A stretch of 64,000 nt of DNA from Algoriphagus machipongonensis (GTDB taxonomy: Bacteria; Bacteroidota; Bacteroidia; Cytophagales; Cyclobacteriaceae): NCBI RefSeq assembly GCF_000166275.1, contig NZ_CM001023.1, positions 2,793,001 to 2,857,000 of the forward strand, written 5' to 3'. Positions 38,491 through 61,248 of the stretch are shown here, piece after piece. The notes under the pieces were generated by a model. That model was not told where the DNA came from, searched no databases, and saw nothing but the letters and a program-made list of their open reading frames with translations. Position 1 is the first letter of the stretch; each line of letters begins with the position of its first letter. A program made the position numbers and the translations under genes.

Positions 38491-39635
38491 GTATGCCAAT
38501 TATACAGAAAGTTAACGCATTGACTCTAAAGGATTGGGTAGAAAAGCCTTTGAAACAAATAGCACCGCTTCAAAGAGGTTTCGATTTACCTAGCACACAT
38601 TTAGCCAGTGGCAAATATCCTGTAGTATACTCTAATGGGATTGGTAATTACCATAATAAATACATGGTCAAAGCACCCGGAATAGTTACAGGACGCTCAG
38701 GGACTATTGGAAAAGTAATGTATTTGGGAAAAGATTTCTGGCCTCATAATACGTCTTTATGGGTTACTAACTTTCACGGTAATGATACTAAGTTTATATA
38801 CTACCTCTATCTATTCATTGGATTAGAACGATTTTCTACCGGTTCAGGAGTCCCCACTTTAAATAGAAATGATGTACATGATTTTCGTGTTTCACTCCCC
38901 CCATTCCACGAACAACAAGGAATTGCCCAAGTCCTTTCTGATACGGACAAGCTGATAAAGTTCCTAGAAAAGAAGATTGAAAAGAAAAAACTCATCAAAA
39001 AAGGGGTGATGCAAGCTTTGCTTACGCCTAAGGAGGGTTGGGAAGTGAAGAAGTTGGGAGAAATAGCAAATATCACAAAGTTAGCTGGATTCGAGTACTC
39101 GAATTACTTTAATAGTTACAAAGATAGGGGCGAGGTTATTGTATTAAGGGGGACTAACATAACTGCCAATAAGCTTGACTTATCAGACATAAAAACAATT
39201 CCAAGAAAAACCTCTGATTTCCTCAAAAGAAGTAAGTTGTATTGTGGTGATTTGGTATTTGCCTACGTTGGAACAATTGGACCTGTGTATCTAGTTAAGG
39301 AAAATAACCGATTTCATTTAGGCCCAAATACATCTAAAATATCAGCTAGTAATTTACTTAATTCAGAGTTTCTCTTCCATTATTTCACTTCATGGTACAT
39401 TCAAGATGAAATCGTTGAACACACAAGCATAGGAGCTCAACCAAGTCTATCTATGTCTAAAATTAGAAGTTTCAATATCAACTTACCGAACTTAGAAGAG
39501 CAAGTTGAAATTGCACGTGTATTGACCGCATTTGATAATGAAATAAAGGATTTGACTAAATTATTACAAAAGTATGGTCATTTAAGACAAGGCATGATGC
39601 AACAATTGTTAACAGGCAAAATTAGACTTGTATAA
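38481..39635 (+). CDS. hsdS: type I restriction-modification specificity subunit HsdS
   Basis: A 384-residue specificity subunit with two target-recognition domains and two conserved helical spacers. The first half ends in PPFHEQQGIAQVLSDTDKLI and the second in LPNLEEQVEIARVLTAFDNE, the repeated pattern that sets the spacing of a bipartite target. Each half is therefore expected to recognise one half-site; the sequence recognised cannot be deduced. The start at 38481 overlaps hsdM by ten bases; an ATG at 38493 is a fair alternative. No flanking spare specificity gene or inverted repeat is seen, so there is no sign of a phase-variable hsdS shuffling locus. Confidence 0.93.
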   Translation: MELGMPIIQKVNALTLKDWVEKPLKQIAPLQRGFDLPSTHLASGKYPVVYSNGIGNYHNKYMVKAPGIVTGRSGTIGKVMYLGKDFWPHNTSLWVTNFHGNDTKFIYYLYLFIGLERFSTGSGVPTLNRNDVHDFRVSLPPFHEQQGIAQVLSDTDKLIKFLEKKIEKKKLIKKGVMQALLTPKEGWEVKKLGEIANITKLAGFEYSNYFNSYKDRGEVIVLRGTNITANKLDLSDIKTIPRKTSDFLKRSKLYCGDLVFAYVGTIGPVYLVKENNRFHLGPNTSKISASNLLNSEFLFHYFTSWYIQDEIVEHTSIGAQPSLSMSKIRSFNINLPNLEEQVEIARVLTAFDNEIKDLTKLLQKYGHLRQGMMQQLLTGKIRLV

Positions 39636-39636
39636 T

Positions 39637-42600: not shown

Positions 42601-42738
42601 ATTGTTAAGAAAAATATTTATGACGTCCTCACTAAAGAAGAGGAAAATTTCGAGGCTGCTGAGCCAATATATAAATATGGTATTGAAGCAGAAGTAGTAA
42701 GAATATTTGAAATCGTTAAGAATCAACCAGAATATTGA
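39637..42738 (+). CDS. hsdR: type I restriction endonuclease subunit HsdR
   Basis: A restriction and translocation subunit of 1033 residues from the ATG at 39637; an upstream TTG in the hsdS end is less likely. The N-terminal nuclease domain has the PD-(D/E)xK pattern RPDIVIYVNGIALAVLELKR, with Asp about 135 and the ELK about 149-151. The SF2 motor has Walker A in WHTQGSGKSLTM and the DEAD-like box VDECHRTQSGK, motif III VFIGFTGTPL and a later QAICRTNRVNG. It pumps DNA and cuts when blocked. It overlaps the YgjP-like gene start by one base (TGATG). The last 500 bases look more AT-rich than the body. Confidence 0.95.
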   Translation: MPGEIERITQNRIVKLFQKKEGLNYSYLGDWEEREGNSNIEVELLTKYLKRQGYSPAHISKAIFELQSVATNFNDSLYTTNKEVYKKLRFGVQVKVNAGDNYETVKLFNWTDPLDNDFAIAEEVTYKGNKTKRPDIVIYVNGIALAVLELKRGIIDIGEGIRQNITNQQDRFIQPFFSTVQILFAGNDSEGLRYGTISTEEKWYLGWKEDVDNTSQLMLDKYLQKICDKERFMELLYDFVLFDGGIKKLPRVHQYFGVKEAEKFVKRYEGGIIWHTQGSGKSLTMVYLAKWILENNPNARIAILTDRTELDKQIEDVFTDAGESIYRTSSGRDLMTQLSQEKPRLLCSLVHKFGNKDTKNFDKFIAELAENPFPVAGELFVFVDECHRTQSGKLHRTMKAMLPNAVFIGFTGTPLLKKDKQTSLEVFGKYIHTYKFNEGVEDGVILDLMYEPRDIDQRLTSESKVDEWFKAKTKGLNEFQTSELKKKWGTMQNVLSSRSRMEKIVADITFDFSTKRLLTSTRSNAILVANSIYEACEYYKLFQKTEFKGKCAVITSYNPHHGDVTTEDTGANTETKKEAIYNLYEEILKDVETLPNKTKTESYEDWAKLKFRKEPANMKLLVVVSKLLTGFDAPSCAYIYLDKSMQDHGLFQAICRTNRVNGEEKDYGYIVDYRNLFDSVGAAISVYTSELDMDDFDSKDISVMLEDRLTVGKKRLDDSIEALALLCEPVKPPKGTLQYIHYFCGNPEKEEDLKETAPQRTVLYKNIVAFIRAYANIADEMTEAGYSVKEAADIHKELDFYLKLREEIKKASGETLDFKTYEADMRHLIDTYIQAEDPENISPFGDMSLLEIITNSGIGEAIGSLPKGIKGDKGAIAETIENNVRKKIISDQLIDPAFFEKMSKLLAELIKERKANAVSYEEYLKRIADLAKQVNEGKNPDTPPKMDTSGKRALYNNLNENEELVIKMDVALKTQSPADWRGIKAKENIVKKNIYDVLTKEEENFEAAEPIYKYGIEAEVVRIFEIVKNQPEY

Positions 42739-43451
42739 TGGAACAATTAGAGCTTGGTAACATCAGTATAGAGGTGGAACAAAAAGATATTAAGAACATT
42801 CATCTGAGTGTCTACCCACCTTACGGCAGAGTTCGTATTGCTGCACCCTCCAAAATGAAGATGGACACTATTCGTGTTTTCGTCATCTCCAAACTGCCAT
42901 GGATTAAGAAACAACAAGAGTCCCTGCTTGCACAGGAACGAGAATCTCCACGAGAGTTCATTAATCGGGAAAGTCACTACTTCTTGGGCAAACGTTATCT
43001 ACTAAAACTAATCGAAAATGATGAACCTCCAAAAGTAGAAATCGATCACAAATACATTCATCTGTACATCCGTAACGGAACAGACCAAACCAAACGGAAA
43101 GAAATTCTGGAAAGTTGGTACCGGATGGAATTAAAGAAGATAGTGCCAGATCTAATCGAGAAGTGGGAAAAGAAGATTGGTGTTCAAAGCAACGAATATA
43201 GGATCAAGCGAATGAAAACCAAATGGGGAACTTGTAACACAGAAGCAAAACGTATTTGGTTGAATCTAGAACTTGCTCGTAAACCAGTAGAATGCTTGGA
43301 GTACATCATTGTACATGAGCTTGTACACTTGCTTGAACGCAGTCACAACGCTCGCTTCATCAAATACATGGACGAATTCATGCCCAAGTGGCGATTTTAT
43401 AGAGATGAATTAAACAGACTTCCTTACAGCCATGTGGATTGGGGGTATTGA
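42738..43451 (+). CDS. YgjP-type M48 metallopeptidase domain protein
   Basis: A 237-residue protein from the ATG at 42738, which shares a base with the hsdR stop. The zinc-peptidase motif HELVHLLERSH lies at about residues 193-203, followed by the third-ligand type region WRFYRDELNRLPYSHVDWGY. The N-terminal part IEVEQKDIKNIHLSVYPPYG and MKTKWGTCNTEAKRIWLNLE are typical of the YgjP/DUF45 family. Such genes are often attached to type I restriction operons, as here, but their part in restriction is unknown. A proteolytic role in controlling HsdR, comparable to ClpXP control in enterobacteria, is conceivable but untested. Confidence 0.88.
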   Translation: MEQLELGNISIEVEQKDIKNIHLSVYPPYGRVRIAAPSKMKMDTIRVFVISKLPWIKKQQESLLAQERESPREFINRESHYFLGKRYLLKLIENDEPPKVEIDHKYIHLYIRNGTDQTKRKEILESWYRMELKKIVPDLIEKWEKKIGVQSNEYRIKRMKTKWGTCNTEAKRIWLNLELARKPVECLEYIIVHELVHLLERSHNARFIKYMDEFMPKWRFYRDELNRLPYSHVDWGY

Positions 43452-46193: not shown

Positions 46194-46691
46194 ATGGGCT
46201 TTTTAAAAAGGAATATCATTTCATTCATCACATTAATTGCATTCATTTTGGTGCTAATTCTTTACTCAATTGAGCGCATAGAATTCAATTTATTTATAGG
46301 AAGTCTTGGAACCATTGTGACGATCTATTTCGGATTGATTCGATTTCAAATAGAGAATGATAAAATTTTTAAAGAGCTATTTACTTCATTTAATGGGAAG
46401 TATGATGAAAAATTTAACGACCTCATAAATGAATTAAAAACTGATCCAGATAAGACCTTAGAACAAGGTGAAATAAACCTCATTATTGATTATTTCAATT
46501 TATGTGCTGAAGAATATTTATGGTTTAGTAAAGGAAGAATACCTAAATCTGTTTGGAGGGCTTGGAAGTCTGGGATCATAGAGAATTTAAAAATCAAACA
46601 GGTAATGGATGTATTTGAAGTTGAAACCTCAACCAAAGAAGGAGAGATCTCCTTTTATGGTCTCGTAGAGGAATTGGGTAAGAGGGTTTAA
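46194..46691 (+). CDS. small two-TM membrane protein
   Basis: A 165-residue protein of no recognised family. The N-terminus has two hydrophobic helices (IISFITLIAFILVLILYS and LFIGSLGTIVTIYFGLI). A soluble cytoplasmic-type tail follows, with FNLCAEEYLWFSKGRIPKSV and WRAWKSGIIENL, features reminiscent of DUF4760-like membrane proteins, though I would not assign it. It begins 142 bases after the helicase gene and ends six bases before the next membrane-protein gene, so the two are probably a pair. In defence loci, small membrane proteins often serve as effectors, which is an inference from place only. Confidence 0.6.
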   Translation: MGFLKRNIISFITLIAFILVLILYSIERIEFNLFIGSLGTIVTIYFGLIRFQIENDKIFKELFTSFNGKYDEKFNDLINELKTDPDKTLEQGEINLIIDYFNLCAEEYLWFSKGRIPKSVWRAWKSGIIENLKIKQVMDVFEVETSTKEGEISFYGLVEELGKRV

Positions 46692-46696
46692 GTAAT

Positions 46697-47410
46697 ATGA
46701 AATTTAACTTTTTAAAAAACATTAATATGTTATTTGGAAGTAAAGAATCAGCAAAAATCGAATTGTTTGAGAAATACAAGTTGCTAATAGCAGCCAGGAA
46801 TTTTCACTATGAAAATTTCAACAAATGGTTGACATATTTTTACGTGGCAAATGCAGCAATATTTTTAGGCTATATCCAGATCATAACATCAAAAGAAACA
46901 GAATGCCCTGAAAAATATCAATTTGCTATACTTTCTCTAGGACTAATTGCAGGCATATTACTCTATTGGTCATCCAAGGGCTATTACTATTGGAATATTA
47001 ACTATATCCTGCTTGTAAACTATTATGAAAAGGAGTTACTAGGATGGAAAGAAAGGGAGCGGATTTATTCCATGTTTGCAAACAAAAATGAACAAAACAG
47101 TTTCGCAAGTCCTGTCTCTGGAGCAAATTTCAGTACATCCAAAATAGCAATCTTATTTTCTTTCATCATTGCAACTTCATGGGGAGCTTTAATAATTAAT
47201 TATACTGAGATACTATCAAAAATACCATTTATTAATCAATTCGATAGTGACCTAATAATCCCGATACTCCTTTCTGGTTTATTATTGATTGGGGTTTCTT
47301 GGTTATTTGGGTTAGGTAAAAACCATATACTTTGGAGCAATACTGATCCACTTCATGATTTAGAAATAAACCAAAAGAAACCATCCACAAACAGGGACAT
47401 TATTTCATAA
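46697..47410 (+). CDS. four-TM membrane protein
   Basis: A 237-residue protein with hydrophobic segments at about residues 46-64 (YFYVANAAIFLGYIQII), 76-93 (FAILSLGLIAGILLYWS), 149-168 (IAILFSFIIATSWGALII) and 189-209 (LIIPILLSGLLLIGVSWL). Its start KYKLLIAARNFHYENFNKWL, before the first TM, resembles the RipA-like integral membrane proteins, but the similarity is from memory and weak. It is six bases after the two-TM gene and 35 bases before the giant ATPase gene, so these three genes and the following helicase gene could be one transcript. A membrane-effector role is possible; nothing in the sequence proves it. Confidence 0.62.
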   Translation: MKFNFLKNINMLFGSKESAKIELFEKYKLLIAARNFHYENFNKWLTYFYVANAAIFLGYIQIITSKETECPEKYQFAILSLGLIAGILLYWSSKGYYYWNINYILLVNYYEKELLGWKERERIYSMFANKNEQNSFASPVSGANFSTSKIAILFSFIIATSWGALIINYTEILSKIPFINQFDSDLIIPILLSGLLLIGVSWLFGLGKNHILWSNTDPLHDLEINQKKPSTNRDIIS

Positions 47411-47445
47411 GAGACTAATTATTAAAAAATACAATAAACTTTTCA

Positions 47446-50400
47446 ATGAAAAATTTTATTCAACAACTTAAAGACTACTGGAAATCAGAAGACTTAACAT
47501 TCATTGCAACTTATACAAGACATAAAGGGGAGTCAGGATTTTTTAATGACTTTCTTAATCCGGTTAATAAATTCAAATTGTATTATCCGGAAATTGACGG
47601 AATAGAAATTGAAAATAAGCGTGTATCATTTTATCATCAGAAAGGTCCAGAATTAATTGATGGTCACTATTATAAAATTGAATTAGAATTCACAAATAGG
47701 CCTAATGGTAAGAATAATCCCTATTCATTAAAAATCAAAAACATTTCAAATCTCAATCAAGAATCCATCAAAGAATTTTTAGATGGGGACAAAGAGTCGA
47801 GTGAATATGAAGGCATTGAATTGTATGGATGCTACAACAGGAAAAATGAAAAGTTTGCTTCATTTGAAAATGTAATGTTCATTGATTCAGGCGAAATTTT
47901 AAAAAATCAAGGAGAAGCAATAAACGTTTTTGTATCTCCTAATATGAAATTGAAGGAAGGAGTGTATTACTCCTTTTTAATCAAAGAAAATGAAGGCAAA
48001 CTTCCCAATGCAATTACTTCATCGATTAAGGAACTTGACTCAGATCCTTATGAAAAGCATATTGATTTTCGCTTTACTTATCTAAACAATCCTGGTGCAA
48101 ATAAAAGCCTTGCCACAACCATGACAGAAATTGGCAAAGGTATGTATTCATCTAAGCAACGCATGATTTTTGAGCTCCTTCAAAATGCGGATGATGCTCC
48201 CGGAAGAGATAAAGTAGGGTTTCATATTGATTTCAAAGGAGATTATTTTTTTATAATGCATGACGGAGCCCCATTCAGTAAAAGTGACGTCGAGGCTATT
48301 ACTAGATCTGGAGAAAGCACCAAACGAGATAAAAGAAAAGTAACTGGATATAAAGGAATTGGCTTCAAGTCAGTTTTCACCGACAGCTCGGAAGTATGGA
48401 TTAAATCTGGTGGTTATCAGTTTGCCTTTCTAAGAGATAATAAGCTCTTTGAGGATTTTGACAGATTCTACTTTAGTGATGAAAGATACACCAAGTATCC
48501 AGATCTACTCATAAAAGATAAAGAAAAATATCAATTTGACAGGTTAAACTTTAAGGGATCAGAAGATATACCTTGGCAATTGATTCCAATTTGGCAAAAA
48601 AAACTTCCTCATGAATTTCAAGATACCAACTTTAACTTTTATAAAAATCCTGTTCAAATAGGCCTCAAATTCGGAAAATCACATATTGAAGACTACAAGG
48701 CTGCGATAGAGAATATTGTAAAAAAACCTCAATTTTTACTTTTTCTAAGAAACACTTCTAGATTTAATTCTCCTAAAAACCCTGTTATAGTAATACGAGA
48801 AGATGAAAATGAGCTCGTTGCTATTACCCTTTTGCAAGGACCAGTAGAAAAAAAATACTTATATAAAAAGCTTTCTTTTAAAGATATCCAAGTTTCAAAT
48901 GAAGCTTTTTCGTCAAATGGTATTGGTCTATTAAAAGACTCGCAAGTAAATGATTATAATGAAATCACTTACTTCTTTACAGATTTGGAAGGAAATAAGA
49001 TTACTACAATCCCTCCTAAAATAGCATCAGTTTCAGAAACAGAAGTATCTTTTGGGTTCTTAATACAAAATGGAAAATTAGTTTCTGAACCAGGTTATGC
49101 AACTTCAAATTCCCAATATTCGAGCTTATTCACATATCTTCCAATGGAAGATAAAAGATTCAAATTGCCATTCCTTGTAAATGGAGATTTTGTGCCAGAT
49201 TCTCGAAGAGAAGAGATACAGGGTGATAACCTATGGAACAAGTATATTATGACTAAGGTAGCTGAGAAACATGTTGAAACCTTAGAAAAGTTTGCATTAG
49301 AATTTAAATCTGATAAGGTTTTTTACTCAGGTTATTTATCCTTGCTTCTAAAAGAACCGCTGCCAGGTGACGATTCGGCTCAACAAATCATAGATAGTTA
49401 CAACGATAAATATTTAGAACAGCTTGAAATAAAGGAAATTATTGTTAATGATATTAATCACGTTCAATTATTATCAGCTACGATAATTGATAATACAGGC
49501 TTGACAGAATTGTTTGGTCACGATATTTTTTATGAGATTGTTGATACTGATAAACGTCTTCCACATATCAGTTTGGATGCCAGCTATTTAAAGAATTATG
49601 AATATTTAAAAGTTGAAATAATCAAGTTGAAAGAATTGGCCACTCATATTACTCCAGAAATTTGTAACCGCTTAGGTGAAATAATTGAGGAAAATTCACT
49701 TTATGAGAAACCTGAGTTATTGAAATGGTTAGATGGATTGGTAAGCCATATTCCTGAAAATTTTGGAAAAATCCCCTTTATTCCACATGACAACTCTTTG
49801 TTTTCTCTTGAAAGTTTAATGGCTGAACCTGATGCATGGTTAATCAATAAAAACACCCTCAAATATCAAGAACTTTTAATTGAGTTAGGCTACCATTCTA
49901 TTAACCTAAATCTTCAAGATTATACCAATCTACAAACCTATATAAATGAAATGTCAGGCTATGTAAATGACAGATCATTAGCGTATGTTCGGTTAGCGGA
50001 AAATTCAAACTTATCCTCACTCAAAATTGAATTAAAAATTCAACTCATTGACTTTTTACAAAATAGTGAGTTTATGCAAGGAATAGGAAAGACTAAATAC
50101 TTTGGCGAATTAAAGCTGTTTGTTGATGAAAATCGTATTGCTCGTCCTCTAAACCAATTAATTAGCCGACAAGATGTTATTGGAATTCCTTCAATCCAAC
50201 ATTTCAGGATTACTGAAGGCGAATATCTCCATCTTACCGATGCTTTAAAGAAAGAGTTAATCCCAAATAATGAAGTGTTTACCTCATTTATTCTGGATCC
50301 AGATTTGTTCGATGAATGGTCTGTTTCATTCTTTTCTAATAACATAGATACCTATGTAGAAAATTTGAAGTCTATATACAGCTGGAAGGATGAAGATGAA

Positions 50401-53088
50401 GAGATACTTCAAAGTAAATGGGCGGCTATACCGTGGTTGTATGTAAGCGATGAATTGAGATTTCTACATTCAGAAAAAATATTTTGGTCGAGGGGATTTA
50501 GCAATCTTTCTACTGAAGACTATGAGACAATAAAAGAAACTTTTCAAAAAGCTAAATTGAAAACACTTCCAATTAAAGAATGTGATGATATAATTCAGTC
50601 ATTCACGCTTAAAACCGATAGTGATACTGATATAGATTGGACACAAATCAAAAATCTAGAATTACTATCCGCAAACTTACTTTTAGATTGGATGGAGAAT
50701 GATGGAGCCTACAGTGATTTTTTTGAAGAATACAATCTAGAGTCTAGTGATGTTGATCTTTGGTCAATCGTAGAAATTGAAAATACTCAAATATTTGATG
50801 GGTCCGAAAAAGCCTTAAAGGCTTATATAGAATCAATTGAAAATCTGAAATCTCAATTCACTGAACTTAATTCATCTTTAGGCAAATCGACACGACACAA
50901 AATTGGCTTGCTGCAAGGTGATAAATTGCTAAAAGCAATTATTGAGTCAAAAGCCTTCGATCAGAATTTGGCTTCACTCCTACCCTCCTCAATTTCAAAC
51001 GAACAACTGAAATCATTTATCTCGAATCTACCCGAATTAAATTTAAAAACAGGTGTTGAATACAATAGCACTACACCTGAACATGTAATTATAAATCAGT
51101 TAATTAAAACTATTGAAGACATTAATTCAATTCCTGATGATTTAACAAAATTGATAGAAATTTTCAGATCTAAGATTAAAATTAACGCTAACCCTTTGAG
51201 CGATTTTGATTTAAGTGACAGAATACAGTTTGGTAAAGGAGATGACAAATATATCCTAAAACTTTCAGATGTCTTAGAACAGTATAAAGGAGAGTCAAAC
51301 GTTCTAGATGAATTAATCGAATCCTTTGTTTCTATAACAGATAAAAGGAAATTAAGAAAGCTTATTTTCAATACCAGAATGATGCCTTTAAATGAGGTAC
51401 ATTCCGTAATTGAAACAGAAAGTTCCGCATATTATTCAATCCATCAGGTTACATTTCAATTACTGGATAAAAAATATGGGACAAATAGAAAGTGGTCAAA
51501 AATCCATTTCGATGATTACTTAAAAAATCAAGGAAAGACTGAGGAATTACATGGGTCATATGCTACTTTTCTAACACTCCTATTTGAATTAGATTTTACA
51601 ATTTTAGATAATTTTCGTTTCCATGATTTAGACCTAAAAAACTGTGTCGACAAAAGCGTGGCAATTAAATCGGAGTTGTTTCCACAATGGCTAGAGGAAT
51701 GGATAAAGATTGATCAAACCAAAAGAATAGAATTTATAGCTAAACTTGGTTATAATGGATTGGATAGTCCTATTGTAAAATTAAGAAAAGCTACTATCTC
51801 AGAAAAACATGATCCAAATGTAATTATTCAGTATTTTCAAGAGTCTAAATCGAATCCCAAAATAGTTTGGAATACAATTCACTGGTTATCTGCATTTAAT
51901 TCAGAAATTATCACAAAAAATATTAATTTAATTTATCAAATAAATAACTCAATTGATTTAAATATTGGTGATGCTAAATCTGTGATAATCCCGATTATAA
52001 CTAAGATTAGCCCTAAAGGTGAAAAAAATTACACATTAAAGAACATTACCACTGAAAAGAAGCTGTATAGTATAAAAAAAGATGAGCCTTTTTCTCATGC
52101 TATATATCAAAAACTAAATGAATCCAACAAGGATGCCATTTTTATTGATTTTAGCTGTGGCAAAAGAACTTCCCATTTCAATTGTGAAGAAATCAAGCTA
52201 GTATGTAATATTGATGATGAATTACTTATAAGAAAATCAAAGTTATGGGATACTTTATTCTATAAAAAATGGGAATTTTCGTCAATCCATCAAATTTATA
52301 TTTACGAGGGAAATGAAATACCTTTTAAATATACTTTTAACGATATCATAATCAACAGATTTACCCAAAACTTAGCAATTCTTTTCAATGGGAAGTATTA
52401 TGTTTCAAAAATCCTTCAAAATAACATTATTGAAAATCTACCTAATTCATTTCCTAAGGATGCTTTAGAGAAACTCAAAAATTGGCATTATAAAACTCTT
52501 CAAAACGAATCGCTTTTAGATGAAGATTCCTATGAATACAAAGAAGATATTGATAGATTACTTCAAGGTAGACTTGGGATTTCAACAAAAGATCAAAAAA
52601 CTGAAAGTGGGAATGCCAAAACTCATGCAGTTTACTTTTTAGATAAAGAAGGATTCAATTTATCAAATGTTAATAGTTCTGGAGCAGCCCTTACAAATAT
52701 CATAGACCCCGAAGGAAATAATGTAAAATGTATTGTTCGAAGTGCAAAAGGGGGACTACTCTATTTAGACAAGGATCATTGGGATATGTTTGAAGATAAC
52801 GACACTTACTTAGTTGTCATTTATCCAGGAAATTCACCTCGACTCTTCAAAAAAAGGTTAGAGCTATTAGATGATAGATTAGCCACAAATGTTCTATTTA
52901 AAGTTCCCAACAGTAGGGATACTGCTGAAATTGATGGGGTTTTTAATTCATTAAAATCAGAATCTCACCTAATATTGGTAACAAGTGAAAAAATGAAAGA
53001 AAGCCTATTTTCTGGTTTAAAAACTAGAAATATTATAACCCCAGAAACCGATATTGCAATTGAAGGAGATGGATTTTCATTAGACTAG
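47446..53088 (+). CDS. giant sacsin-like GHKL ATPase protein
   Basis: An 1880-residue protein. After about 220 residues of unknown type, a GHKL (Hsp90/MutL/sacsin-like) ATPase domain is seen. The N-box is FELLQNADDA at 242-251, with the Mg-binding Asn247. The G1 box is MHDGAPFS around 271-278 and the G2 box GYKGIGFKSVF at 301-311. This order is typical of sacsin-type proteins rather than histidine kinases. The next 1300 residues are acidic, helix-rich and without known domain. The C-terminus (NVKCIVRSAKGGLLYLDKDH, then YLVVIYPGN) has the layout of DUF3883-like restriction-endonuclease folds, but without the expected acidic and lysine residues. Three bases separate it from the helicase-PIN gene. 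Confidence 0.8.
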   Translation: MKNFIQQLKDYWKSEDLTFIATYTRHKGESGFFNDFLNPVNKFKLYYPEIDGIEIENKRVSFYHQKGPELIDGHYYKIELEFTNRPNGKNNPYSLKIKNISNLNQESIKEFLDGDKESSEYEGIELYGCYNRKNEKFASFENVMFIDSGEILKNQGEAINVFVSPNMKLKEGVYYSFLIKENEGKLPNAITSSIKELDSDPYEKHIDFRFTYLNNPGANKSLATTMTEIGKGMYSSKQRMIFELLQNADDAPGRDKVGFHIDFKGDYFFIMHDGAPFSKSDVEAITRSGESTKRDKRKVTGYKGIGFKSVFTDSSEVWIKSGGYQFAFLRDNKLFEDFDRFYFSDERYTKYPDLLIKDKEKYQFDRLNFKGSEDIPWQLIPIWQKKLPHEFQDTNFNFYKNPVQIGLKFGKSHIEDYKAAIENIVKKPQFLLFLRNTSRFNSPKNPVIVIREDENELVAITLLQGPVEKKYLYKKLSFKDIQVSNEAFSSNGIGLLKDSQVNDYNEITYFFTDLEGNKITTIPPKIASVSETEVSFGFLIQNGKLVSEPGYATSNSQYSSLFTYLPMEDKRFKLPFLVNGDFVPDSRREEIQGDNLWNKYIMTKVAEKHVETLEKFALEFKSDKVFYSGYLSLLLKEPLPGDDSAQQIIDSYNDKYLEQLEIKEIIVNDINHVQLLSATIIDNTGLTELFGHDIFYEIVDTDKRLPHISLDASYLKNYEYLKVEIIKLKELATHITPEICNRLGEIIEENSLYEKPELLKWLDGLVSHIPENFGKIPFIPHDNSLFSLESLMAEPDAWLINKNTLKYQELLIELGYHSINLNLQDYTNLQTYINEMSGYVNDRSLAYVRLAENSNLSSLKIELKIQLIDFLQNSEFMQGIGKTKYFGELKLFVDENRIARPLNQLISRQDVIGIPSIQHFRITEGEYLHLTDALKKELIPNNEVFTSFILDPDLFDEWSVSFFSNNIDTYVENLKSIYSWKDEDEEILQSKWAAIPWLYVSDELRFLHSEKIFWSRGFSNLSTEDYETIKETFQKAKLKTLPIKECDDIIQSFTLKTDSDTDIDWTQIKNLELLSANLLLDWMENDGAYSDFFEEYNLESSDVDLWSIVEIENTQIFDGSEKALKAYIESIENLKSQFTELNSSLGKSTRHKIGLLQGDKLLKAIIESKAFDQNLASLLPSSISNEQLKSFISNLPELNLKTGVEYNSTTPEHVIINQLIKTIEDINSIPDDLTKLIEIFRSKIKINANPLSDFDLSDRIQFGKGDDKYILKLSDVLEQYKGESNVLDELIESFVSITDKRKLRKLIFNTRMMPLNEVHSVIETESSAYYSIHQVTFQLLDKKYGTNRKWSKIHFDDYLKNQGKTEELHGSYATFLTLLFELDFTILDNFRFHDLDLKNCVDKSVAIKSELFPQWLEEWIKIDQTKRIEFIAKLGYNGLDSPIVKLRKATISEKHDPNVIIQYFQESKSNPKIVWNTIHWLSAFNSEIITKNINLIYQINNSIDLNIGDAKSVIIPIITKISPKGEKNYTLKNITTEKKLYSIKKDEPFSHAIYQKLNESNKDAIFIDFSCGKRTSHFNCEEIKLVCNIDDELLIRKSKLWDTLFYKKWEFSSIHQIYIYEGNEIPFKYTFNDIIINRFTQNLAILFNGKYYVSKILQNNIIENLPNSFPKDALEKLKNWHYKTLQNESLLDEDSYEYKEDIDRLLQGRLGISTKDQKTESGNAKTHAVYFLDKEGFNLSNVNSSGAALTNIIDPEGNNVKCIVRSAKGGLLYLDKDHWDMFEDNDTYLVVIYPGNSPRLFKKRLELLDDRLATNVLFKVPNSRDTAEIDGVFNSLKSESHLILVTSEKMKESLFSGLKTRNIITPETDIAIEGDGFSLD

Positions 53089-53091
53089 CAT

Positions 53092-55410
53092 ATGGTAACT
53101 AAACAAGATCAAATTAATTTTTATACAGATGAACTTAGAGAGTTAGAGTTTTCTGTTAAAAGAATATTTAATTCTACCGGCTTATCCTTATTTCAGAATG
53201 GAGAACTATATGTTGGTCAATTTAAAGGTTTTGATTCTAAAAGAGGGAATGCCTTCTTTGATTTACCCTATGGAAACAAATATCATTCTCCAAGGCTTGA
53301 CCAAAATCTAACTTGCTTCACATTAAAAACTGGATTTGAACGACCACAAACCTGGGAAAACATAACCTTTCTCGATCTTATAAAAGACAGAAATCGAACT
53401 GAAGCTAAAACTCTCGACTATATTTCATCCAAACGACAAGGGTGGATAACTCTGTTAGTAAGAGGAATGGATTATGAATTCGTTAAATCAATTCAAATAA
53501 ACCAAATCTTAGGTTTTGGCCCTACAATCCCACCCTTTGAATATCTCCAAAATTTAAAATTGTTGAGTGAGTCATTTGATGAAAACAGCTCAAATATTTG
53601 GGAAAAAATTCTAGGTTTCAAATACAAGTTTAATAAAAATAAGATCCCAGGCCTATTATTAGAAGATCATGATATTGCCGGAGTTATAATAAATGAATTA
53701 AATAAATCAAATATTTATATTTTTCAAGGACCTCCTGGTACAGGAAAAACTCATCAAGTTGCAGAAATTGTCTCACGGTTAGCTAAAACTAATAAATCGG
53801 TTTTGATTACTGCCCTAACCAATAAAGCTGCAGTCGAAGTATGTAAAAAGGAATCTATTGCTGAATTACTTAAAAACAATAAAATCTCAAAACTTCCACT
53901 TTCAATTGATGAGAAAAAGATGTTCCCAGATCTTGGTTTGGCTAAAGAACTAGTTGCTAGTAAAGGCCATGTATTATTGACGACTTATTATCAATTTTCA
54001 AGAATTTGGCAAACTCAGAACAATTCATTCGACTATGTCATAGTTGAGGAAGCGTCACAAGCTTATCTTACTACAATTGCTGCAGCTTCGAAAGTTGGAA
54101 AGAAAGTGATAGTTGTAGGAGATCCAAAACAAATTTTACCAATCGTTAGCAATAAAAATTATGAGGAATATGAGAATATTGACCTTTTAGTCAATGGTAT
54201 GGATACAATGGCCCAGATTGAAAGCTTTATATTCAACAGGAAAATTGAAACTCGAAGGTTGACTGAAAGGTCAACAATTTTCACAAATAGTTTCTATGAA
54301 AATACTATTCAATCTTTATCTATTAATAAGGATATCTATCCTGATAAAGAAAAGCTCATTTCAATGGGTGTCTTAATGCACCCATTGGGTGGTCCATCAT
54401 TAATTTTATTTTCAGATAAGAAAGGAAGTATAAAAGAATCGATGCTGAACTTCTTGGTTAAAAGCATAGACGAATTATCCACTCTTAAAAAAAATGAAAT
54501 TGCTGTTTTAACTCCCTATATAGAAACACTTAAATTTCTTCAACAAAATTTAAAATCAAAAACAAATTCTAGAAACTATTTAATTGAAACAGTTGATAGA
54601 GTTCAAGGATTAGATGTTGATTATTGCTTCTACGTCGTCCCAAAATCAAGTTCATTTTCATTTAACATAAATCGCTTCAATGTTGCAACAAGTCGGACTA
54701 AAAAATGCACATTTATTCTTGCTGAAGAGAAATATGATCATGTAGTTAATTTGTCAAATGAAGTTGATACTTACCTAAGAAAACTAAAGGAGGAATTTTC
54801 ATTCCTCTATACAACCGAAGGTGAGTTAATTAAGAACAAAAATCAATCTGAAAATGAAATCACTAATTCTAAAATAGAAATCAGAAAAGAAAATCAAATT
54901 GAACATTCCGAAAAAAGAATTAAAACTGAATCAAAACTTCCTGGATTAAAGATTTTAGGCCATATAGATCTTTCTAAACGTGGAAAACACATAAGTATTG
55001 ATAAGAATAATTATTACTTGATTGATACAAATGTTTTTATAGATGAACCGGAAATAATTAGTAAAATAGACAAGAAGTACCCAATTATACTTTCAGCAAA
55101 AGTCCTAGATGAACTTGATAGCTTAAAATTAAAATTGGATTCAGATGGTAAGAAAATGGTTCAAAGAGCCTTAAAGTCCATTAACCAAAACCAAAACTCT
55201 AGAGAAATTCGATTAATAACTTCAGATAAATCTTTACTTCCCGATGATTTTGACAAAAGATCACATGACAATCTGATTCTGACCGTATTGCTGAAATTCA
55301 AAGATGAAAATCCAATATTGATTAGCTCTGATAATGGATTACAGATAAAAGCGAAAGGACTTGGCTTTTCTGCCATAAATCTAAAAGATTTTCTTAGGTC
55401 AAATAGGTAG
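53092..55410 (+). CDS. SF1 helicase fused to a PIN nuclease domain
   Basis: A 772-residue fusion. After an N-terminal beta-rich region, the SF1B (Upf1/Dna2-like) helicase has Walker A GPPGTGKTHQ at 213-222, LITALTNKAAVEV as motif Ia, VIVEEASQAY as motif II, VIVVGDPKQILPIV as motif III and the C-terminal FNVATSRTKKCTFILAEE as motif VI. A charged linker of about 60 residues leads to a PIN domain from residue about 640: YYLIDTNVFIDEPEI, SAKVLDELD, LITSDKSLL and LISSDNGLQIKAKGL. These supply the conserved acidic residues of a metal-dependent RNase. The combination suggests RNA unwinding with cleavage. It starts three bases after the giant ATPase gene. Confidence 0.85.
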   Translation: MVTKQDQINFYTDELRELEFSVKRIFNSTGLSLFQNGELYVGQFKGFDSKRGNAFFDLPYGNKYHSPRLDQNLTCFTLKTGFERPQTWENITFLDLIKDRNRTEAKTLDYISSKRQGWITLLVRGMDYEFVKSIQINQILGFGPTIPPFEYLQNLKLLSESFDENSSNIWEKILGFKYKFNKNKIPGLLLEDHDIAGVIINELNKSNIYIFQGPPGTGKTHQVAEIVSRLAKTNKSVLITALTNKAAVEVCKKESIAELLKNNKISKLPLSIDEKKMFPDLGLAKELVASKGHVLLTTYYQFSRIWQTQNNSFDYVIVEEASQAYLTTIAAASKVGKKVIVVGDPKQILPIVSNKNYEEYENIDLLVNGMDTMAQIESFIFNRKIETRRLTERSTIFTNSFYENTIQSLSINKDIYPDKEKLISMGVLMHPLGGPSLILFSDKKGSIKESMLNFLVKSIDELSTLKKNEIAVLTPYIETLKFLQQNLKSKTNSRNYLIETVDRVQGLDVDYCFYVVPKSSSFSFNINRFNVATSRTKKCTFILAEEKYDHVVNLSNEVDTYLRKLKEEFSFLYTTEGELIKNKNQSENEITNSKIEIRKENQIEHSEKRIKTESKLPGLKILGHIDLSKRGKHISIDKNNYYLIDTNVFIDEPEIISKIDKKYPIILSAKVLDELDSLKLKLDSDGKKMVQRALKSINQNQNSREIRLITSDKSLLPDDFDKRSHDNLILTVLLKFKDENPILISSDNGLQIKAKGLGFSAINLKDFLRSNR

Positions 55411-55494
55411 TTTTCCGAAAAATTTAATCTATCTCAAATCAATCTAGATACCGTAAATATTATTGAAAAGGCAAAATTGTTTTTATTAAAATAC

Positions 55495-55522
55495 ATTATT
55501 ATGGGAAACCATAAATAATAAT
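55495..55522. promoter_or_regulatory. inverted repeat in front of the DUF413 gene
   Basis: ATTATTATGG and CCATAAATAATAAT are near-perfect arms around GAAA, in the 149-base AT-rich gap 55411-55559. It lies 38 bases before the DUF413 start, in a place suited to an operator. The HTH-like protein at 60425 is a possible ligand, untested. Confidence 0.4.
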
Positions 55523-55559
55523 ATACTTTATAAATTTTTTCATTTATTCAACTTTTTTT

Positions 55560-55946
55560 ATGAAAGAAATAACCAGACATCAAAACCTGATCAAAAGAAA
55601 AGGAACTTTTATAGTTGATTGTAGCCACGCAATTTTCTCTGAGGAAGAATTGGACACTTTAAAGAAATATGGACACTGGTTTATGGCTCTTACTTCAGGC
55701 GAACTCAATCCAATTTCAGAACTTCAAGGTGAATTTATAAAAGTTGCAAAAAGAGAGAAAAATCCAACCTCTCCATTTGAATGGGCATGGTTTAAGTATT
55801 TGGGGAGAAAGCGTATTGAGGAAGAACATGGTGACAGACTTAAAATTCAATACACTCCGAAAGAAGATAGCTTTTACAGCAGAGAAATGGCAAAGCAACA
55901 AAAGAGAATGATTTTTAGTGTTGTTAGTAAGAATCACAAAGAATAA
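55560..55946 (+). CDS. DUF413-family protein
   Basis: A 128-residue protein. FSEEELDTLKKYGHWFMALT, then SGELNPISELQGEFIKVAK and PTSPFEWAWFKYLGRKRIEE, follow the DUF413 pattern: a helix with L-x-x-YG, a short turn with G-x-x-x-P, and the terminal W-x-KY. The best-known member is MaoP of enterobacteria, which acts with a DNA site in organising the Ori macrodomain. In this island the gene heads a new unit: 15 bases later comes the 536-residue gene. A DNA-associated or adaptor role for the PLD module is conceivable. The C-terminus is more basic than in MaoP. Confidence 0.6.
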   Translation: MKEITRHQNLIKRKGTFIVDCSHAIFSEEELDTLKKYGHWFMALTSGELNPISELQGEFIKVAKREKNPTSPFEWAWFKYLGRKRIEEEHGDRLKIQYTPKEDSFYSREMAKQQKRMIFSVVSKNHKE

Positions 55947-55961
55947 AAACTATAAATTTTT

Positions 55962-57572
55962 ATGACTCAAACTGTTTTAAGAAACAATGAAATCAGACTC
56001 CCTTTTTTAGGGGCTAAAATTAATTTTATTGGTGGTCTAGACCCACTAGGGCTACAGAACGCATCTGAACAAGCATATTCAAGACTACTTCCTGGTCTAA
56101 ATAATGTAACTGGACTTATAAGATCTTATAGTTTCTATCCTTGGCTACTCAGTCAATATCCAAAAAGTATAGTTTCAACAGATCCAAGCAAACAAAAACA
56201 ATTCATTAGAAGAGCTGAATTCCTTAATGCCCTAATATCACAATCAAATGGAATTCAAGGCATTAATGGTGGTACCCTTGCAGCTAAATTTTTGGAAGAG
56301 GAGAACAATTCCTTTGATCTTCAAAAAGGGATTTATAATTCAAATGGATCAACCGTTGATACTTATTGGAAGTATCCATTTGGAATATTTGGTCAATATT
56401 ATTTAGGCTCAATACGCCAGATTGGAATTATTGAGGAAGTTGTTGATTCAAATAATATACTTCTTGGCCTATACAGGCCTACCAAACAAACAGATCATTC
56501 AATCGTATCTGGAGATTCGCTTGCTAAAGCCTTTGAATCCAATATTAGCGATTCTAATAGATTATTATATTTAAAATGCATCGAATCAGGTATAGTAAAT
56601 CGGAATAATCTAAAACAACTGAAAGATGATTTCAATCTTCGTGAAATTGATCAAACAACTGAAGAGTGGAATCTTTTAACCAAGCTACTTATTAGCACTG
56701 ATACCCCTCTGATTTATGGTGAGGAACCTAAAAATCGACGAAAAGAAACAATATTCCATTTGATGAATTTTGCTTCGGATACCAATAGAGAAATTAATGA
56801 CAGGGAATTCACGATGTGGGCTTACGACTCAAAGGGACTGATAAATGAAAATGAGGATGAATGTCTTTCCGGTTGGTATTATTATCAACTTAATGAATAT
56901 TGGCAATTAGCATGCACAGCTATCCTTCACGCAAGTATTGAAAAGTTACAAGACTTAGCAGGAACAGGTTGGTATCCATTTTATGAATTAATCGAAATTA
57001 TATCATCTGAAATAACGCTTAGTCTAAAAGAAAATGGGCTAATAGAATCAGAGAATGATGAAGTAATTCAAATTTTAGACAAGGTGAATTCTAGTGAAAA
57101 GAATCTTTACTTAGAAATCATGAACACCTTGGGGATTCAGAGATCGAATTCATCATTTAAATTACTTTTTAAACTTCTGAAAGAGAACACTATAAATGCT
57201 GAAAGATTAAGACAATATGTTAGTGAAAATCAATATGATTTAAGCAAAGATGTTTTGTCATTTATTGAAGAGTTTCAACTCACCGAGAATTTATCAATCA
57301 GACCGTTTTTAAATGACTTCCTAATAGAAAATATTTTTTTTCGACACAAGCATATCGCTTATAGGAAGATGGGATTAGGAAATCAGTCTACCGAAAAATT
57401 CATCTTGGAAGAAGGTATGATTCGAATGATTGATTTGTTTGGACCAGGTTTTACAGGACCCAGAGTAGGTAATCTTATAACTTATCTCAAAGATTTGCAA
57501 CTATTATCTCCAGAGGGGAAGATTAGTAAAGTTGGAATTGATTTTTTAGAGAAATTAAAATATGACATTTGA
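55962..57572 (+). CDS. unrecognised 536-residue protein, partner of the PLD protein
   Basis: I do not recognise this family. The protein has no signal peptide or TM helix. The N-terminus FLGAKINFIGGLDPLGLQNA, then SEQAYSRLLPGLNNVTGLIR and SYSFYPWLLSQYPKS, looks structured and conserved-type. The rest is mostly helical, and the last 60 residues (EEGMIRMIDLFGPGFTGPRV, GNLITYLKDLQLLSPEGKIS) could be a winged-helix-like region. It overlaps the following PLD gene by 11 bases, so the two are translated together and probably form a complex. A role in sensing or substrate recognition for the nuclease is a guess. Confidence 0.7.
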   Translation: MTQTVLRNNEIRLPFLGAKINFIGGLDPLGLQNASEQAYSRLLPGLNNVTGLIRSYSFYPWLLSQYPKSIVSTDPSKQKQFIRRAEFLNALISQSNGIQGINGGTLAAKFLEEENNSFDLQKGIYNSNGSTVDTYWKYPFGIFGQYYLGSIRQIGIIEEVVDSNNILLGLYRPTKQTDHSIVSGDSLAKAFESNISDSNRLLYLKCIESGIVNRNNLKQLKDDFNLREIDQTTEEWNLLTKLLISTDTPLIYGEEPKNRRKETIFHLMNFASDTNREINDREFTMWAYDSKGLINENEDECLSGWYYYQLNEYWQLACTAILHASIEKLQDLAGTGWYPFYELIEIISSEITLSLKENGLIESENDEVIQILDKVNSSEKNLYLEIMNTLGIQRSNSSFKLLFKLLKENTINAERLRQYVSENQYDLSKDVLSFIEEFQLTENLSIRPFLNDFLIENIFFRHKHIAYRKMGLGNQSTEKFILEEGMIRMIDLFGPGFTGPRVGNLITYLKDLQLLSPEGKISKVGIDFLEKLKYDI

Positions 57573-60432
57573 AAGACAGAATATCCTTGAATTAATTGGC
57601 AAAGATCAATCTAGGTATCAACATGCAATTATCACATCCTATAGTTTTGATTTTACTTTTTTTGAAACGAAAGTATCAAATATTCTCCGCCAAGCTAATA
57701 TTTCCAATATCAATTTATTAATAGATCGAACACAATTAGAAAAATCCATAGAACAAGCTCCTTCTGAAATTCTGGAAAGGGTAAGGAATTACTCGATCTC
57801 TCCGATTGATAGTAATGGTGTTTTTCATCCAAAAATCATGTTATTAATTGGAAAGAAAGAAGGTCTATTGGTTTTAGGATCAGGAAATATTACTTCTTCT
57901 GGAATTAATACCAATGATGAAATATGGGCTGCATTTCATATTAAAGACTTAGAAATCAACCATGCTCCAATATTTAGCGCAGCTTGGAATTATTTAAAAA
58001 CATATTTTGAACAGCTTTCCAAGTTTAATAGAAAAAAAATAGATTGGATATTGGCGCAAGCTTCTTGGATTTCAGAAATCGGAAATTTTACCGATGAGAA
58101 AAATATTCAACTCGATTCAGAAGAAGAAATATCCTTATTGACAAATAAAAACGGTAGCTCAATTTTTGAACAACTTAAATCAGAAATTTCAGAACCAAAC
58201 TTAGAAAAGCTAACAATAATTTGCCCTTTTTATGATAAGGATGGATACACAATCCAAAAGCTTAATCAAGAGTTTAAACCTAGGACTTTAGATTGTATAG
58301 TGGAATTAGAATTTGGACTTCTCCCCACCGAATTCAATTCTAGTGTAAACCCAAATGTCAATTTTTACAGTTGGATAAATAGCTCTTCAAATGATGATGC
58401 AATCAAATTCAACCGCCTTCATGCAAAAATTCTACATTTCAAATTTAAATCTGGGATAGAGTATCTTCTTCTTGGTAGTGCAAATTCAACAAGGCAAGGT
58501 TTAGGAACAGAAGGTTCCTTTAAGAACGATGAAGCATCAATACTTATCAAAAGAAGTGGTAATCGGGATTATTTGAGGGATTTAGATATAAAACCTAATC
58601 CAGAAAACTCTATTTTAATTCAAAATGAAAAACAAAAAGAATGGATTCAAGGAGATGTTAAAGATTCAAAGTCTTTTGAAAATAAAATCATATCTGCAGA
58701 ATTAGATACTTCTGGCTTAGTACTTGAATTTAAGAAACCAAATAATAAACCTATTACGATTGGTGTAAGCCAAAATAAGTCTTCATCACCGTATTTCATA
58801 GAATTGAATTTTGAGGGAAGATTCATTACTATTTCAATTATCGAATCCCTACGACCCTCCCTAGTTGCCATTTACAAGGATAAAGAGAAGGTTTCTCCCT
58901 ATTTTACTATCCAAAATAATATTGCACTTGAAAAGACTAATCCGTTAATCGGAAAGTCTAAAAGTTCCGCTATAATAGATTTATTTCTTTTAAATCCAGA
59001 ATCTGCTAATTATGCAGAACTTCTAAAGTTTCTCGATTATAGCTGGATTGATGAATTTGAAGATTCAATCAAAAAAACAATTTCAAATTCATCAATTAGA
59101 GATATAACCAGTACTAAGGAATCAAATTATAGGGAAATCAATGAAGCTCAATTCAATGAACTAAGATCTTTTAATGACGTCAAACAAGAAGCTTCACTTT
59201 ACGATGATACCTCAGCAATAACTGAATTAATCAATCAAATTTCAAAAGGTCTTATTCAGTCAAACGAAGTTGTAGAGAGTAATGAGCAAAAACTTTCATT
59301 AGAAAACGATTCTGATCAAGAAGGGGATTCTGAGGAAGAAATAAATTTAAGTCAAGCAAACATTGGTAATTCAAAAGAATTTGATGCCATACATAGACAC
59401 TTCAAAAAAGTAAGGGAAAGATTCAGTCAAAGAATTTCTATAATTTTCAAAACAGGTGATATAACAGAAAGTATTGAGGATCCAATAACAAGAAAAGAAA
59501 TATTAAATCTAGGAGCTGCATTAAGCCTCATGATAATTTTCCATGGGAAAAAGTATAATGAAGAGTATACTGTTTTAGGACTCCAAAATTCTAAGGAACT
59601 TGATCACGAATTCGGTGAAATCCGTTCCAGAAATTCTGCTACCCCAATTGATACTCCAAATGGATATAACCGGGGAGAATTGTTTTATGAAATGAAAAAG
59701 AATTCTTTCCAAAATTTCTTAAAAGAATTGGAAAAATTATCATTAGAAAGACTAATTATCAAGGAAAGCATTTCCACATTTTCTTCTGAGGAGAATTATT
59801 TATCTAATGGTTTATTTGTAGATGGCGAAAAAATATATGGGTTGAAAAACTACCTAACAGAGATTTTAAGCCCCTTCCTTATTTCTTATGCTTTTTACAA
59901 AGGCGAGAAGATATATTCATTTGACCCTGTAAATCATAGAATTAAAAAAGAGAAAGAGGATGTTTTTATTAAAGCATCATTTTTAATATTTAATATTGAC
60001 TGGAAAGAATCTGAATTAAAAAATCGAAATCTATTATTGCTAGACCTCATTCATTTTATTTATCCAAATAAAATCACAAATGAAATAATTGATGGGTTCA
60101 TAAAGGAATGGAATAGCTTTTATAAGAATGCATCAATTAAAAACAGGGCATTTCATATGAATAAAGAAGACTTCTTAATCAACCTCTTACCAAAATATCA
60201 AAGTTGGCAAACAACATATGAATCAAATCTAAAGGACAGTATAATTGAAGAAAAATCATTAATTCAGCCAGGTACGATAATATTTAACTCAAAGATTGGC
60301 TTTAGTACATTTTTAAAATTAGCCTCTAGTAATATCATAATCGAAAAATTTGGATTGAATGATGAAACCCAATTTGGAGATGAACTATTTAAAATAAAAT
60401 ACCCTCAAACGAGGGTAATAACCTTCATTTAG
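57562..60432 (+). CDS. PLD-superfamily protein (two HxK half-sites)
   Basis: A 956-residue protein. The first phospholipase D-like half-site is FHPKIMLLIGKKEGLLVLGS with GSGN (H89, K91, residues 106-109). The second is RLHAKILHFKFKSGIEYLLL with GSAN (about H287, K289, 305-308). Both have the H-x-K-(x)n-G-S-x-N arrangement of PLD-type nucleases and phospholipases, so a complete active site can form within the chain. Residues about 590-620 are very acidic (ENDSDQEGDSEEEIN), then helix-rich sequence without recognised domains fills the C-terminal 350. Likely a nuclease by the context of helicases. Its 3' end overlaps the convergent HTH-like gene by eight bases. Confidence 0.83.
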   Translation: MTFERQNILELIGKDQSRYQHAIITSYSFDFTFFETKVSNILRQANISNINLLIDRTQLEKSIEQAPSEILERVRNYSISPIDSNGVFHPKIMLLIGKKEGLLVLGSGNITSSGINTNDEIWAAFHIKDLEINHAPIFSAAWNYLKTYFEQLSKFNRKKIDWILAQASWISEIGNFTDEKNIQLDSEEEISLLTNKNGSSIFEQLKSEISEPNLEKLTIICPFYDKDGYTIQKLNQEFKPRTLDCIVELEFGLLPTEFNSSVNPNVNFYSWINSSSNDDAIKFNRLHAKILHFKFKSGIEYLLLGSANSTRQGLGTEGSFKNDEASILIKRSGNRDYLRDLDIKPNPENSILIQNEKQKEWIQGDVKDSKSFENKIISAELDTSGLVLEFKKPNNKPITIGVSQNKSSSPYFIELNFEGRFITISIIESLRPSLVAIYKDKEKVSPYFTIQNNIALEKTNPLIGKSKSSAIIDLFLLNPESANYAELLKFLDYSWIDEFEDSIKKTISNSSIRDITSTKESNYREINEAQFNELRSFNDVKQEASLYDDTSAITELINQISKGLIQSNEVVESNEQKLSLENDSDQEGDSEEEINLSQANIGNSKEFDAIHRHFKKVRERFSQRISIIFKTGDITESIEDPITRKEILNLGAALSLMIIFHGKKYNEEYTVLGLQNSKELDHEFGEIRSRNSATPIDTPNGYNRGELFYEMKKNSFQNFLKELEKLSLERLIIKESISTFSSEENYLSNGLFVDGEKIYGLKNYLTEILSPFLISYAFYKGEKIYSFDPVNHRIKKEKEDVFIKASFLIFNIDWKESELKNRNLLLLDLIHFIYPNKITNEIIDGFIKEWNSFYKNASIKNRAFHMNKEDFLINLLPKYQSWQTTYESNLKDSIIEEKSLIQPGTIIFNSKIGFSTFLKLASSNIIIEKFGLNDETQFGDELFKIKYPQTRVITFI

Positions 60433-61057
60433 CCCAATGCTTGTATCGGCCTATTCCTAATTTTACTTTTAATTGATATTCATTTAAGTTATATAAATCA
60501 TCAAATGCCAACTCCCCCTCCTCCTCTGCTTGGTCTTTTCTAAAGCGCCAATAGGAATTAAAATATCCTGGTCTTAATTGGATTCTTACAATTTGTTGAT
60601 CTTCTAAAAATTCATGAGTTATTTCTTCAACGTAGAAATGAGAATAACCAAAATATGCATAAAAGAATGAAATTGAAATAGATTCACCAACTCTTGGAAT
60701 TACCGGTAAACACCTTGATTCAAAGGATAAGTTCTGCTTCTTTAAATCATAGTAAATATTAAAAACATAAGTGATATTTTTGAATTCAAAAGGGATTTTA
60801 GCCACACCCTCTCCTATCAATTCCTGGTATATCAAATGAAGATATTTCCTAAGCTTGTCATATTTAATATTAAATCTCTTTGAAATCTCTTTAATACTGG
60901 GAATTTGATTTTCAAATTCTTCAGCAATAGATGATTTTAAAAATTCCTTTAAGAAATCATTAAATACATAATCATTTTCCAAAAGTTTAATTGCTCTCCC
61001 CTTCATTTCAAGTAAATCATATATTATCCTCTTAGTAGAAATTTGGTTCTGTTCCAT
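60425..61057 (-). CDS. HTH-like protein, convergent to the PLD gene
   Basis: A 210-residue protein, the only minus-strand gene of the island. Residues about 45-85 (IPSIKEISKRFNIKYDKLRK, YLHLIYQELIGEGV) look like a helix-turn-helix of the phage or AraC-like type, with IKEISKRFNIKYDKL as recognition unit. The C-terminal part is beta-rich with many aromatics (SISFFYAYFGYSHFYVEEIT). No known family is assigned. As the distal gene facing the PLD gene with an 8-base overlap of 3' ends, it may be a regulator; the inverted repeat at 55495 is a candidate target. It is the last gene before the right attachment end. Confidence 0.6.
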   Translation of the reverse strand: MEQNQISTKRIIYDLLEMKGRAIKLLENDYVFNDFLKEFLKSSIAEEFENQIPSIKEISKRFNIKYDKLRKYLHLIYQELIGEGVAKIPFEFKNITYVFNIYYDLKKQNLSFESRCLPVIPRVGESISISFFYAYFGYSHFYVEEITHEFLEDQQIVRIQLRPGYFNSYWRFRKDQAEEEGELAFDDLYNLNEYQLKVKLGIGRYKHWAK

Positions 61058-61230: not shown

Positions 61231-61248
61231 TTCTGTATCGGGAAGTAA
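61231..61248 (+). other. attR core: displaced 3' end of mnmE
   Basis: TTCTGTATCGGGAAGTAA encodes FCIGK and stop like the mnmE tail, with synonymous changes TTT/TTC and GGA/GGG. No mnmE sequence precedes it, so it is the tail separated from the gene by the island. The 61058-61372 gap otherwise has the GTACC repeats and a hairpin, and no gene. Confidence 0.85.

Follow-up and report, generated by a model that had tools for sequence, protein, structure and literature searches.

The window analysed here, a 64,000-nucleotide stretch of Algoriphagus machipongonensis contig NZ_CM001023.1, contains a block of tightly spaced genes that an initial annotation had proposed as a single undescribed defence module. 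Our analysis points instead to two modules of two genes each, both independently mobile and frequently associated with DNA-modification defence, arranged in tandem behind a type I restriction-modification (RM) operon in an island at mnmE, and we put the probability of this reading at about 0.7. Module A combines a TmtA-family ATPase with a superfamily 1 (SF1) helicase, while module B combines a protein of 536 amino acids (aa) with a PLD-superfamily protein; each pair appears to be a distant relative of a known antiviral system. Among the loci read, the full seven-gene set was seen in the window only. The four module genes are the following (window coordinates; E values in brackets):

47446–53088, + strand: module A, sacsin-like GHKL ATPase of the TmtA family, 1880 aa (SACS PF25794, 5.1e-11; TmtA profiles)
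53092–55410, + strand: module A, SF1 helicase with a C-terminal PIN domain, 772 aa (AAA_11, AAA_12; PIN_4, 6.3e-21)
55962–57572, + strand: module B, 536-aa all-helical protein, putative distant relative of ZacA (family alignments A1 and A5)
57562–60432, + strand: module B, PLD-superfamily protein, 956 aa, putative distant relative of ZacB (PLDc_2, 2.7e-8; ZacB, 1.5e-11)

Module B, a 536-aa gene and a PLD gene

One genome per species (84,980 species) was scanned with the 13-member alignment A1, and the best 80 of 129 relatives were kept. Of these 80 loci, 79 yielded the 536-aa gene on local gene calling and 78 yielded the PLD gene. The two loci with no PLD gene (L057 and L083) end about 40 bases or less from the match, and in L125 the 536-aa open reading frame (ORF) was displaced in the ORF filter by a longer ORF on the opposite strand. 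Both genes were called in 77 of the 80 loci and were adjacent and on the same strand in all 77. The junction measures −49 to +17 bases at 74 of these, and at the remaining three the genes overlap by 205–367 bases, probably reflecting start-codon choice. Eighteen plasmid records also matched module B, and the pair was present in all ten that were fetched. Two Rhizobium plasmids carry the pair in inverted order, the PLD protein of one of them lacking its first half. Distances between the 536-aa proteins followed those between the PLD proteins closely (correlation 0.985 for 75 loci, window included; Mantel r 0.961 for 43 dereplicated loci), a value reached by none of 2000 permutations in either case; the module B genes are tightly co-inherited. 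At 70 % identity, 14 of the 80 loci fall into a single cluster, ten members of which have neighbouring genes of the same sizes, consistent with a single mobile element.

The PLD protein possesses two HxK...GSxN half-sites, the residues of which are conserved across the family (n=75: H89 in 74, K91 in 75, N109 in 75, H287 in 75, K289 in 74 and N308 in 75). Its 536-aa partner returned no Pfam match. The AlphaFold2 model of this protein, based on a 57-sequence alignment, is almost all-helical and of high confidence (predicted local distance difference test, pLDDT, 90.3; predicted template modelling score, pTM, 0.88), and no solved or viral structure matched it at 0.001. Weak matches to winged-helix chains in a second look lay within the described noise of the tool.

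Module B is reminiscent of Azaca, a system comprising ZacA (DUF6361), ZacB (PLD) and ZacC (helicase), with which it shares a helical first gene followed by a PLD gene. The ZacB profile matched all 13 PLD family members scanned (best 5.7e-18), and in the window's PLD protein, encoded directly downstream of the 536-aa gene, the matching stretches include residues 175–331. Profile–profile comparison of the PLD and ZacB families returned 98.9 % over 280 columns, and the ZacA profile matched six of 13 members of the 536-aa family (best 1.5e-5).

The neighbourhood of module B is enriched in type I RM genes. Following dereplication, hsd genes were present in the stretch read at 12 of 43 loci and shared an operon with module B at six (before dereplication, 20 of 80 loci had an hsd gene). 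An hsdM-like gene was found in seven of the 24 dereplicated loci of at least 17 kb, against about 1 % expected per 21-kb interval from the HsdM_N background of 146 matches in 99 genomes of ~3.3 Mb. This corresponds to a roughly 25-fold enrichment, an approximate figure given that observed and background counts rest on different criteria (phmmer with the window's HsdM at 1e-8 versus a Pfam model) and that the control represents one phylum. On a Myroides plasmid, module B sits between hsdS and hsdR; on some plasmids it stands alone, in Polaromonas it adjoins Zorya genes and in Sphingobium it is accompanied by a DrmD-like gene. One further locus (L041, 8551–9823) carries, immediately before the pair, a 159-aa gene, a helix-turn-helix gene and a 146-aa gene, an arrangement that by eye looks toxin-antitoxin-chaperone-like.

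Module A, a TmtA-family ATPase and an SF1 helicase

The 1880-aa ATPase matched the PADLOC TmtA profiles PDLC03972 (2.5e-90, residues 211–706) and PDLC03970 (3.9e-61, residues 534–1713) and displays the GHKL motifs LLQNADD, HDGAPF and GYKGIGFKS. The helicase encoded downstream is Upf1-like by motif, with its Walker A sequence GPPGTGKT at residues 213–220, and the acidic residues of its PIN domain (D645, E674, D726 and D747) are all present. The initial annotation had singled out this Walker A motif, N247 and the H89/H287 pair as active-site residues, and each exists, N247 within LLQNADD and the histidines in the two HxK motifs of the PLD protein.

Relatives of the helicase were sought in three overlapping sets: 98 relatives, a phylum-level set of 395 genomes and an order-level set of 390. 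In the last of these, 15 genomes matched at 1e-40, the window's own counted. We read 18 helicase loci, namely the window, L031, L032, L158, L187–L199 and the viral contig L173, and at 15 of them the helicase is immediately preceded by a TmtA-like gene (called by phmmer at 12 loci and by PADLOC at L193 and L173, plus the window). In L189, TmtA reads as two pieces. L195, not among the 15, is cut by the contig end. The 15 include genome G286 of the same genus, which encodes a TmtA-like protein directly upstream of a helicase with the same PIN fusion. The viral contig L173 carries TmtA C-terminal sequence together with a helicase.

Just three of the 18 loci encode a helicase with a fused PIN domain (the window, L158 and L187; the L173 helicase is truncated by the contig end). 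The helicases of L158 (10745–13012) and L187 (10271–12526) have PIN domains that are 81 % identical on cores that are 32 % identical, and the window's PIN is 59–60 % identical to both, a pattern that suggests exchange of the PIN domain between diverged helicases. Stronger constraint on the PIN than on the core would be an alternative explanation.

Eight of the 18 module A loci adjoin a system for DNA modification, whether type I RM, BREX or type IIG. Type I RM genes are found near module A in the window, L031, L032 and L158, BREX pglZ and brxL lie beside it in L189, and type IIG-like enzymes do so in L190, L191 and L194. A pAgo match (1.9e-270) was returned near module A in L158, which belongs to the same genus, and a UG19 reverse transcriptase match (7.3e-131) in L032.

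Several individual arrangements were also observed. In L158 (2935–13012), a protein that we take to be DUF1016-like and the pAgo are encoded directly upstream of TmtA and the helicase-PIN fusion. In L032 (11310–15404), a 205-aa gene accompanies the UG19 reverse transcriptase between the helicase and hsdR, within the type I RM locus. L190 and L194 share the order type IIG-like enzyme, TmtA, SF1 helicase, DruE-like protein, which may represent a larger conserved system, and in L196 (13573–15482) the TmtA–helicase pair lies beside genes that by eye resemble phage recombination genes.

The island and alternative explanations of the block

The remaining features of the island are listed below.

31249–61248: island of 30.0 kb at the 3′ end of mnmE (att-like repeats, integrase, G+C)
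31866–33029: integrase
36082–42738, + strand: type I RM operon hsdM, hsdS and hsdR (PADLOC MTase_I, Specificity_I and REase_I; Pfam)
46194–46691, + strand: 165-aa protein with hydropathy peaks at residues 8–26 and 31–49, accessory
46697–47410, + strand: 8xMP membrane protein (PF24838, 4.2e-22), accessory
55411–55559: gap of 149 bases between the modules, with a non-significant RNA fold
55560–55946, + strand: DUF413 protein (PF04219, 2.1e-12), apparent local addition
60425–61057, − strand: ORF of 210 aa, final gene of the island, overlapping the PLD gene by 8 bases and assigned to neither module

That the block lies in a mobile island, as the initial annotation held, is borne out by the integrase and by an 18-base att-like repeat at 31249–31266 (the end of mnmE) and 61231–61248, the pattern of which was defined after both copies were known, making its chance estimate post hoc. 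We take this repeat to resemble the SGI1 site in mnmE. The G+C content drops to 34.0 % in the island from 38.8 and 39.0 % in its flanks, one of which contains a SusD-family gene (Pfam). The block forms the distal part of the island, downstream of the type I RM operon. A YgjP-like metallopeptidase (window 42735–43451) is encoded after hsdR, and L074, L095 and L112 likewise have YgjP relatives close to hsd genes.

Seven ORFs lie on the + strand within 46194–60432, followed by one on the − strand up to 61057, and Pfam confirmed the domain types originally described (8xMP, SACS, helicase and PIN_4, DUF413 and PLDc_2). The distances along the block are 5, 35, 3, 149 and 15 bases, followed by an 11-base overlap, in agreement with the original list except for the first gap, given there as 6. 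The hydropathy peaks of the first two proteins are compatible with membrane segments. The 165-aa protein matched no Pfam family above its cut-off, and its gene is not conserved among the loci read. 8xMP was found above the cut-off in two of 128 genomes of the order, the second of which (G068) encodes it directly after an hsdM-like gene, while DUF413 was found in one of 118, the window's own; both look like local additions, neither appearing as a conserved member of module A or B in the loci read. The inverted repeat proposed for the 149-base gap did not fold significantly as RNA (z = −0.74; 43 of 200 shuffles folded equally well or better). The suggested division into two units at this gap holds up, but the membrane pair and DUF413, which had been counted as members, were not recovered as conserved parts of either.

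A single system in which the membrane pair, ATPase, helicase-PIN, DUF413, 536-aa and PLD proteins act together would fit the common strand, the tight spacing and the single island. However, single-sequence phmmer at 1e-4 returned no match in the 80 module B loci for TmtA, 8xMP, DUF413, the 165-aa gene or the 210-aa gene, the 17 module A loci outside the window returned no match to the 536-aa or PLD profiles, DUF413 and 8xMP are as rare in the order as described above, and the 149-base gap parts the modules. As the set fails this test of co-occurrence, one undescribed seven-gene system is unsupported and, in our view, very improbable. Module B might alternatively be no separate system but supply type I RM enzymes with a pair of accessory subunits that modifies or replaces HsdR action. 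We regard this as unlikely: the frequency of hsd genes near the pair and in its operon, its position between hsdS and hsdR in Myroides and its location downstream of hsdMSR in the window all argue for such a role, but no hsd gene was present in the stretch read for 31 of the 43 dereplicated loci, many of which are on short contigs, and the pair also stands alone on plasmids or beside Zorya genes.

The absence of hsd genes from those 31 stretches equally weighs against the two-module reading, as do several further results. L197 and L199 have no TmtA: three paralogous genes of ~300 aa precede the helicase in its place in L197 (259–4994), while L199, in which the helicase match is weak, has an unrelated 619-aa gene in that position. 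The distances of TmtA and the helicase correlate weakly across 13 loci (r 0.20, reached by 250 of 5000 permutations), and their trees are partly in conflict. The window's 536-aa protein matched neither ZacA nor DUF6361, and the profile–profile match of its family to ZacA (78.7 %) covers just 84 N-terminal columns. The weak TmtA–helicase correlation and the widely varying companions of both modules would be expected if unrelated cargo were hitch-hiking in a defence island and neither pair were a functional unit; yet the module B genes are adjacent in 77 of 77 loci with overlapping junctions and a distance correlation of 0.96, and TmtA adjoins the helicase in 15 of 18, which makes this explanation very improbable. 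On balance, we favour the reading of two mobile gene pairs placed in tandem.

Proposed roles and comparison with known systems

The gene pairing, homology, conserved catalytic motifs, module B co-inheritance and genomic context are direct observations. From homology and genomic context we infer a probable defence role for both modules, along with the complexes, triggers, nuclease activities and phage resistance invoked here. In module B, the two genes would form a translationally coupled pair in which the 536-aa protein most likely serves as a sensor or scaffold and holds the PLD enzyme in check; once released, the enzyme would cut phage nucleic acid, making the pair a ZacC-less cousin of ZacA–ZacB. 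This sensor or scaffold plus nuclease model is favoured by the gene overlap, the paired PLD half-sites and the relationship to Azaca. In module A, the GHKL ATPase may act with the SF1 helicase as an ATP-driven clamp or sensor on foreign nucleic acid, the helicase-borne PIN RNase being the likely effector in the window; in relatives the neighbours differ (pAgo, reverse transcriptase or DruE-like protein) or are lacking.

A broader proposal, which we advance tentatively as possible rather than probable, is that TmtA and the SF1 helicase serve as a general platform for sensing, which docks next to an RM, BREX or type IIG system and accepts exchangeable effectors (a fused PIN RNase, Argonaute, the UG19 reverse transcriptase with its neighbour, or 8xMP), the PIN being swapped between diverged helicases, and that the 536-aa/PLD pair is a widespread stand-alone two-gene defence system. 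One vague candidate has in any case become two precisely bounded gene pairs, each open to separate cloning and testing. That module A occurs next to type I RM, BREX and type IIG genes gives a hint of the way in which defence uses GHKL ATPases, and module B links a broad family with no Pfam model to Azaca and type I RM operons.

No PADLOC gene set names the whole block, and to this extent the novelty originally claimed stands; some of its parts are already named, however, as TmtA (Tiamat) and ZacB (Azaca). Tiamat is a single-gene system (TmtA). The window's ATPase matches several PADLOC TmtA models, carries the GHKL motifs and can be assigned to TmtA, but the single-gene definition includes no helicase, whereas here and at 14 other loci TmtA is paired with an SF1 helicase, suggesting a helicase as the working partner of some TmtA proteins. 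The design envisaged for module A resembles the DNA-looping model proposed in PMC2292703 for GHKL (MORC/paraMORC) ATPases encoded in RM operons beside a helicase. The likeness lies in a GHKL ATPase encoded beside helicase and RM genes; those systems mostly contain superfamily II helicases, whereas the GHKL protein of module A is sacsin-like, its helicase belongs to SF1 and a PIN RNase is present locally. HEPN proteins are discussed as RNases forming a second line beside RM systems in PMC3710099.

The initial annotation had found no match to the DISARM or Mokosh gene sets, which we corroborated. PADLOC detected neither DrmA nor DrmB among the genes of the block, and the PLD protein gave a weak DrmC match (3.1e-7). 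As in Mokosh, an SF1 helicase and PLD activity lie close together, but the helicase matches MkoA in short stretches only (1.6e-30, best 285–369), the PLD protein has no MkoB match in PADLOC and the two proteins fall in separate modules. The PLD domains of Azaca and Mokosh are both listed in PMC10952713.

An Azaca-like locus is present in the same genus: G034 encodes a ZacA match (3.9e-82; DUF6361, 4.3e-28), then a PLD protein and then a 1118-aa protein with helicase-like motifs, as read by eye. The G034 ZacA matched 37 plasmid records, and in all six that were read a helicase gene lies downstream of the DUF6361 gene. A PLD gene is annotated at the intermediate position in four of the six; in L134 it is unnamed, and in L135 it is not evident. 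In the window, by contrast, the PLD gene is followed only by the opposite-strand 210-aa ORF and then the end of the island, with no ZacC helicase, and the module B proteins are larger (536 and 956 aa versus ~412 and 610 aa for ZacA and ZacB of G034). Because no helicase follows it in the window, we call module B a putative ZacC-less relative of Azaca rather than a member, an arrangement that raises the question of whether the helicase of Azaca is dispensable.

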